Source: an uncultured Pelagibacteraceae bacterium (GTDB lineage: Bacteria; Pseudomonadota; Alphaproteobacteria; Pelagibacterales; Pelagibacteraceae). From it: a DNA stretch of 36,664 bases. The notes under the pieces are model-generated. The model did not search any database. It was not told where the DNA came from and saw only the letters and a list, made by a program, of their open reading frames with translations. The number at the start of each line of letters is the position of its first letter. The stretch's first letter is position 1. Of the stretch, positions 3,004-3,585 are shown piece after piece. The translations under genes and the position numbers were made by a program. The DNA lies in contig CACJHS010000010.1 of NCBI GenBank assembly GCA_902593235.1, forward strand, positions 1 to 36,664, in the 5' to 3' direction.

Positions 3004-3031
3004 CTTGAAAAAAACAAATTAATTACCATAT
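3004..3031 (+). promoter_or_regulatory. Sigma32 (RpoH)-like promoter of hsp20
   Basis: CTTGAAA (3004-3010), 13-nt spacer, TACCATAT (3024-3031) versus textbook CTTGAAA-N13-15-CCCCATNT. Confidence 0.6.
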
Positions 3032-3038
3032 AAATCAG

Positions 3039-3093
3039 GTAAGTCGCCTAATGGGGCTTACAAAAATAAACTTGCTTAACAAAGGAGGATATT
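3039..3093 (+). promoter_or_regulatory. ROSE-like RNA thermometer candidate in hsp20 5'UTR
   Basis: Hairpin 1 GTAAGTC-g-CC/taat/GG-GGCTTAC (3039-3061); hairpin 2 CTTGCTT (3071-3077)/AACA/AAGGAGG (3082-3088) masks the SD with a central G-G mismatch; ATG at 3094. Confidence 0.6.
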
Positions 3094-3540
3094 ATGACAA
3101 GTAAGGATCTATCTATATTTAACTCACTTAGACCTTTTTCAATTGGTTTTGATGACATGTTCGACCAATTTGAAAATATGTTGGGAAATGGGAATTTGAC
3201 AATGCAGTCAAATTATCCACCCTACAACATCCGAAAGACAGGTAAAGACAACTATGCAATTGAAGTAGCATTGGCTGGCTTTAGCAAAAAAGACGTTGAG
3301 GTTGAGTTCGAGGACAATTTATTAACAGTAAGAACAAAACAAGTTAATAAGTCTGAGGACAGTGATGTTAATGGAGAAATTATACATAAAGGTATTTCTC
3401 AAAGACAATTCGCAAGATCATTCACTATTGCTGATGATGTAAAAGTTAATGGTGCTGAACTTAAAGATGGTCTTTTAACAATATCTTGTGAAAGAATAAT
3501 TCCAGAACATAAAAAAAAGAAGCTTATTGAAATTAAATAA
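3094..3540 (+). CDS. Hsp20/alpha-crystallin family small heat-shock protein (IbpA-like)
   Basis: Alpha-crystallin domain 'YNIRKTGKDNYAIEVALAGFSKKDVEVEFEDNLLTVR...IHKGISQRQFARSFTIADDVKVNGAELKDGLLTI'; strong SD AGGAGG. Confidence 0.95.
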   Translation: MTSKDLSIFNSLRPFSIGFDDMFDQFENMLGNGNLTMQSNYPPYNIRKTGKDNYAIEVALAGFSKKDVEVEFEDNLLTVRTKQVNKSEDSDVNGEIIHKGISQRQFARSFTIADDVKVNGAELKDGLLTISCERIIPEHKKKKLIEIK

Positions 3541-3553
3541 GTCTTAAACCTTG

Positions 3554-3585
3554 CTTGTGGGGATTTCTCCCCACAAGTTTTAATT
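3554..3585 (+). terminator. Rho-independent terminator after hsp20
   Basis: 10-bp perfect stem CTTGTGGGGA/TTTC/TCCCCACAAG followed by TTTTAATT. Confidence 0.85.

Follow-up and report, generated by a model that had tools for sequence, protein, structure and literature searches.

A short two-hairpin ROSE-like leader as a probable RNA thermometer of hsp20 in SAR11 bacteria

The 5' leader of the hsp20 gene in a SAR11 bacterium of the Pelagibacteraceae, lying at approximately 3038–3093 of the 36.7 kb stretch of DNA that was analysed as a whole (the window), is very probably a short RNA thermometer of the ROSE-like kind, composed of two hairpins of which the second is predicted to hide the Shine–Dalgarno (SD) sequence. 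SAR11 bacteria, which possess very few regulators, rank among the sea's most abundant cells. ROSE thermometers are familiar from rhizobia, enterics and pseudomonads. The argument for the leader is built from the gene that it precedes, its promoter, the pattern of change in its two hairpins among relatives and its likeness to ROSE elements of other bacteria. The features described lie on the + strand of the window unless another strand is given.

The hsp20 gene and its promoter

The gene downstream of the leader (3094–3540) encodes an IbpA-type small heat-shock protein of 148 amino acids belonging to the Hsp20/alpha-crystallin family (PF00011, E 8.5e-17), as the first-pass annotation of this DNA had proposed; the best NCBIfam model for the product is IbpA, with a score under its cut-off. 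No other PF00011 match is present in the host assembly, which comprises 1.03 Mb in 52 contigs and is 77% complete. On the 5' side of hsp20 lies a gene for a prolyl oligopeptidase, which ends at 2991. On the 3' side the terminator scan returned a hairpin resembling an intrinsic terminator (3553–3578), which suggests that the hsp20 transcript carries one gene. Two genes away from hsp20, on the - strand at 397–930, there is an open reading frame resembling a membrane protein with a C-terminal J-domain (DnaJ, PF00226, slightly under cut-off). Several nearly complete SAR11 genomes gave no hsp20 match (G093, G445, G471 and G482, from genus g3 of family f2 and genera g229 and g231 of family f1), a distribution which suggests that hsp20 and its thermometer have been lost in particular SAR11 lineages.

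Upstream of the leader is a promoter of the sigma-32 (RpoH) type, with a -35 element CTTGAAA (3004–3010) and a -10 element CCATATA (3026–3032) separated by a spacer of 15 nt. Of 124 distinct relatives, 101 have CTTGAA exactly and most of the others ATTGAA, and the -10 element is similar in nearly all; the sequence from there to hairpin I varies freely. An rpoH gene was found in the host genome. Given this promoter, transcription is inferred to start at about 3038–3040, so that hairpin I would form the extreme 5' end of the mRNA.

The possibility that the same element also precedes the rpoH genes of SAR11 was rejected, none being seen in those rpoH leaders. Upstream of rpoH in family f2 (L258–L267) a sigma-32-like promoter (CATTGA...CCATAT) stands a few bases before the ATG. 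No clear SD was apparent in the f2 regions, the inspection of which also took in L270–L286 from the genus of the host genome, with start codons picked by script. This arrangement suggests an f2 rpoH mRNA that would be self-activated and nearly leaderless.

Two hairpins and their conservation

Hairpin I (3039–3061) has 9 bp, a bulged G3046 and the loop UAAU. Its lower part is formed by the pairs G3039–C3061, U3040–A3060, A3041–U3059, A3042–U3058, G3043–C3057, U3044–G3056 and C3045–G3055, and beyond the bulge C3047 pairs with G3054 and C3048 with G3053; folding reproduced the extent, pairs, bulge and loop given in the first-pass annotation. The compensatory changes which that annotation had suggested looking for are present in this stem. 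On an hsp20 tree of 165 tips, double changes that preserve the pair number 36 in stem I, beside 91 single-sided changes and 27 changes to or from unpaired, with 97.4% paired, whereas slid control pairings gave 0–9 double changes and 110–196 unpaired. In the leaders of relatives pairing drops sharply past pair 7 of the stem. The covariation in alignment A2 was 0.178 against 0.113 in the shuffle control, none of 500 shuffles being as high, and the conserved core of the hairpin reads GCC-UNAU-GGG. Judged by these comparisons hairpin I is under selection, and with its compensatory changes it corresponds to the stable upstream hairpin, or hairpins, of the ROSE class. It is followed by an A-rich, single-stranded linker (3062–3070), the length of which varies in the alignment.

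In hairpin II the strand CUUGCUU (3071–3077), containing the ROSE motif U(U/C)GCU, pairs across the loop AACA (3078–3081), the length of which varies in relatives, with the SD strand AAGGAGG (3082–3088). The predicted pairs are C3071–G3088, U3072–G3087, U3073–A3086, C3075–G3084, U3076–A3083 and U3077–A3082, with G3074 and G3085 opposed. Folding thus returns a pairing over the whole SD, interrupted by one G–G mismatch and including one U–G pair, in agreement with the earlier reading. The hsp20 ATG begins 5 nt past the SD strand, and in relatives and in other families the leader likewise stands directly before a small heat-shock gene, as is usual for the ROSE class.

The 61-nt leader folds with an energy of -14.3 kcal/mol (z -3.1; 0 of 200 shuffles as good), and RNAalifold returned the identical two-hairpin structure unprompted from 20 relatives. 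Hairpin II alone has an energy of -3.1 kcal/mol at 37 C (z -2.5); at 20 C the energy model gives it -5.5 kcal/mol. The pairing energy of the SD is ordinary: among 128 SD-bearing gene starts from the window and from 400 kb of a complete relative, for which the gene-start calls are rough, the window's hsp20 ranks 51 and that of the relative 23. Because such pairing of the SD is common in this AT-rich genome, folding energy alone does not single out hairpin II, and the case for this predicted hairpin is carried by conservation instead.

That conservation is extensive. The combination of hairpin-I core, U[UC]GCU, GGAG and ATG occurs once in the window and once in the 400 kb of the relative, at hsp20 in both. 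Each of 121 distinct leaders of the same genus contains UUGCU a single time despite the variable length of the hairpin II loop, and among 173 Pelagibacteraceae leaders, sister genera included, the strand reads UUGCU in 171 and UCGCU in 2. All 173 have G at the position of G3074. The leader has both the U(U/C)GCU motif paired with the SD in the 3'-proximal hairpin and the non-canonical G facing the SD that are associated with ROSE elements. The first-pass annotation had named retention of the SD with loss of the UUGCU strand as the observation that would count against it, and the opposite was found. Its expectation that relatives would keep the G and also show compensatory changes was borne out in hairpin II as regards the G; double changes are absent there because both arms are almost frozen. 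In relatives with CCUUGCU, the G–G register is not favoured by the energy model.

Variants outside the genus retain the principle of a covered SD. Genus g228 has UCGCU, the other ROSE form, in place of UUGCU, and keeps the SD stem with the G bulged. In the sister family f2, AAUCGCUUAAGGAGGAUU folds into an SD stem of 10 pairs with a bulged G, by which the SD is hidden. The hsp20 leaders of f2 (L004–L031) differ in their upstream hairpin, an example being GCUUAGCUCUUAAAGAGUAAGC, and have this longer bulged-G SD stem with UCGCU; from their predicted folds they are a ROSE-like form of different build in the sister family.

Relation to known ROSE elements

Two ROSE models, ROSE_3 (RF02523; 22.7 bits, E 0.0077) and ROSE (RF00435; 19.6 bits), are the best two of 4227 Rfam families at this site, with scores below their gathering thresholds of 43 and 45, respectively. 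The covariance search advocated in the first-pass annotation therefore favoured ROSE in rank and fell short in score, and at gathering thresholds nothing in the window matched Rfam. In the alignment to ROSE the bulged G and the CCUNAUGG apex of the upstream hairpin match, as does the UUGCU/SD hairpin. The Rfam ROSE models are narrow, since L188, a leader resembling ROSE from a different alphaproteobacterium, likewise scores only 30.8 against a gathering threshold of 45. Genome-wide searches of 61 relatives with RF00435 gave 0 matches, the controls being equally silent, so that absence is not proved by it. The SAR11 leader agrees with a ROSE thermometer in each sequence feature that was compared. 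On account of the sub-gathering scores it is filed as ROSE-like and not as a member of these two Rfam families; the ranking and the constant U(U/C)GCU strand both support that ROSE-like reading, which the earlier annotation had advanced.

A covariance model built from SAR11 leaders, R1, has a single match in the host genome, and within the genus it yields one strong match apiece in 72 genomes, the host included (E<=6.4e-4). Over 290 alphaproteobacterial genomes its six best matches, among them the window, are all hsp20 leaders, from families f1, f143, f50 and f10. Nine of the 20 R1 loci examined, again counting the window, precede hsp20, and more hsp20 leaders (f10, f120) are found farther down the list amid chance matches. 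R1 also matches weakly at other places in SAR11 genomes, where the hairpin-I core is missing; these matches were taken as chance. In an alphaproteobacterium of family f23, a ROSE-like leader (L228, reverse strand, element 1501–1563) stands directly before rpoH, the gene being recognized by TIGR02392 above cut-off. This element has a hairpin I with the GCCUAAU-GGG core and UUGCUU before the SD, at a weak score of 22.9 bits (E 0.08); its SD hairpin has no folding advantage over shuffled sequences, and the other two genomes of family f23 gave no match to the element.

The closest counterparts are the short ROSE elements of Pseudomonas ibpA, which have been tested and which measure 61–62 nt, with an RpoH promoter, a stable hairpin I and a melting hairpin II containing U(U/C)GCU, the energies of hairpin II being -4.1 to -7.6 kcal/mol (PMC3669281). 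The SAR11 leader resembles them in its length of about 60 nt, its two hairpins, its RpoH promoter, its stable hairpin I, the U(U/C)GCU facing the SD and the small heat-shock gene that follows; it differs in being AT-rich, in its weaker hairpin II (-3.1) and in a possible partner for the anti-SD strand within codons 2–4. The first-pass annotation had suggested that the compact leader may be a form minimised in a streamlined marine bacterium. The short two-hairpin form is real, but it is not peculiar to SAR11, since the Pseudomonas ibpA leaders share the layout (PMC3669281). With the classical rhizobial ROSE (RF00435, Bradyrhizobium hspA) the leader shares the upstream hairpin with its bulged G and CCUNAUGG apex and the UUGCU/AGGAGG hairpin, whilst it has no counterpart to the central portion of the model's 94 positions and has two hairpins as against three to four. 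Like the fourU thermometers it has, ahead of a heat-shock gene, a hairpin in which the SD is imperfectly paired; unlike them it has UUGCU and no run of four U facing AGGA.

Earlier work on SAR11 touches the subject briefly. The intergenic regions of strain HIMB5 have been described as including 'a possible RNA thermometer', for which the main text gives neither gene nor sequence (PMC6429828), and this may be the SAR11 hsp20 leader. A further study mentions in its main text neither a heat-shock nor a thermometer motif for Pelagibacter (PMC2704228). No description of a ROSE element in SAR11 was found in the literature searched, the main text of PMC6429828 naming no gene, and the ROSE-like leader is apparently undescribed so far in this group.

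Proposed mechanism and alternatives

In the proposed mechanism, the hsp20 mRNA would begin with hairpin I, being transcribed from the sigma-32 promoter. The G–G opposition and the U–G pair would weaken hairpin II, which at the usual temperature of the sea would hide the SD; upon warming it would open whilst hairpin I remained folded, allowing ribosomes to bind and the chaperone to be produced. The probable role of hairpin I is to insulate hairpin II as it folds and to shield the 5' end of the mRNA. Most likely RpoH drives transcription of hsp20, and hairpin II represses its translation at low temperature until warming relieves it. A weak hairpin II may suit a cooler set point, which would fit its being weaker than the -4.1 to -7.6 of Pseudomonas.

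The evidence bears differently on the explanations that could replace this one. Were hairpin II a chance pairing in an AT-rich leader, heat control could be purely transcriptional through RpoH, and the ordinary SD pairing energy and the sigma-32-type promoter would both accord with that; it is very unlikely, however, given that CUUGCU is invariant in 121 distinct leaders across changes in loop length and that g228 and f2 have UCGCU and still keep the stem. Improbable too, on balance, is a leader which is no thermometer and serves instead as a translational operator responsive to a protein or ligand, or as an element of mRNA stability. The strongly conserved GCC-UNAU-GGG core of hairpin I could act as a binding site, and many structured SAR11 leaders are non-thermal (PMC2704228, PMC6429828), but the core falls within the Rfam ROSE alignment, the strong R1 matches all lie before small heat-shock genes and a U(U/C)GCU–SD hairpin is the ROSE signature (PMC3669281).

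A further alternative concerns the way in which the thermometer would work. The segment AAGUAAG (3099–3105), within codons 2–4, is complementary to the anti-SD strand 3071–3077 over 7 pairs, one of them G–U, and the conservation of these codons suggests a second, competing pairing. The first-pass annotation was correct in the SD pairing itself and had not considered this possible one. In a bistable or exchange thermometer CUUGCUU would leave the SD upon warming and be captured by the frozen codons, the SD-paired state being off and the codon-paired state on. Among 141 distinct orthologues, codons 2, 3 and 4 have the 2nd, 1st and 4th lowest synonymous variation of 116 conserved codons, and Lys4 is AAG in 138 of 140, although 76% of the lysine codons in the rest of these genes are AAA. 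When synonymous alternatives, weighted by codon usage, are ranked for this pairing, the native codons fall on average within the top 7%, a figure that reflects one shared inheritance and not independent observations. The complement is retained in the sister genus g230 (approximately 80–83% protein identity) and in part in g12, and in g229 AGUAAG sits one codon nearer the start. Modelled over 3037–3123, the RNA is SD-paired at 20 C, with codon pairing at 0.05, and codon pairing rises to 0.50 at 42 C.

Several observations nevertheless make the exchange doubtful. Over the shorter segment 3037–3111 the same kind of model places the codon pairing on top at every temperature. The complement is absent or broken in g228, which retains the SD pairing, and in f2. 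AGC at codon 3 would strengthen the pairing yet is never used, ACA is frozen even where its last base would stay unpaired, and the lowering of synonymous variation tapers off by degrees until about codon 11, as it would under ordinary constraint on the start region, which is a fair alternative explanation of the frozen codons.

If confirmed, the thermometer proposed here, in which hairpin II melts to expose the SD, would provide SAR11 with a heat sensor free of protein, placed on the sole hsp20 found in the host genome, and would extend the ROSE class to a marine lineage that is streamlined and whose habitat is much colder. If the exchange were true, the thermometer would reach into the coding region, with part of the sensor written in the coding sequence. 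The natural variants in loop length, register and the choice of UUGCU or UCGCU open thermal tuning to direct tests.
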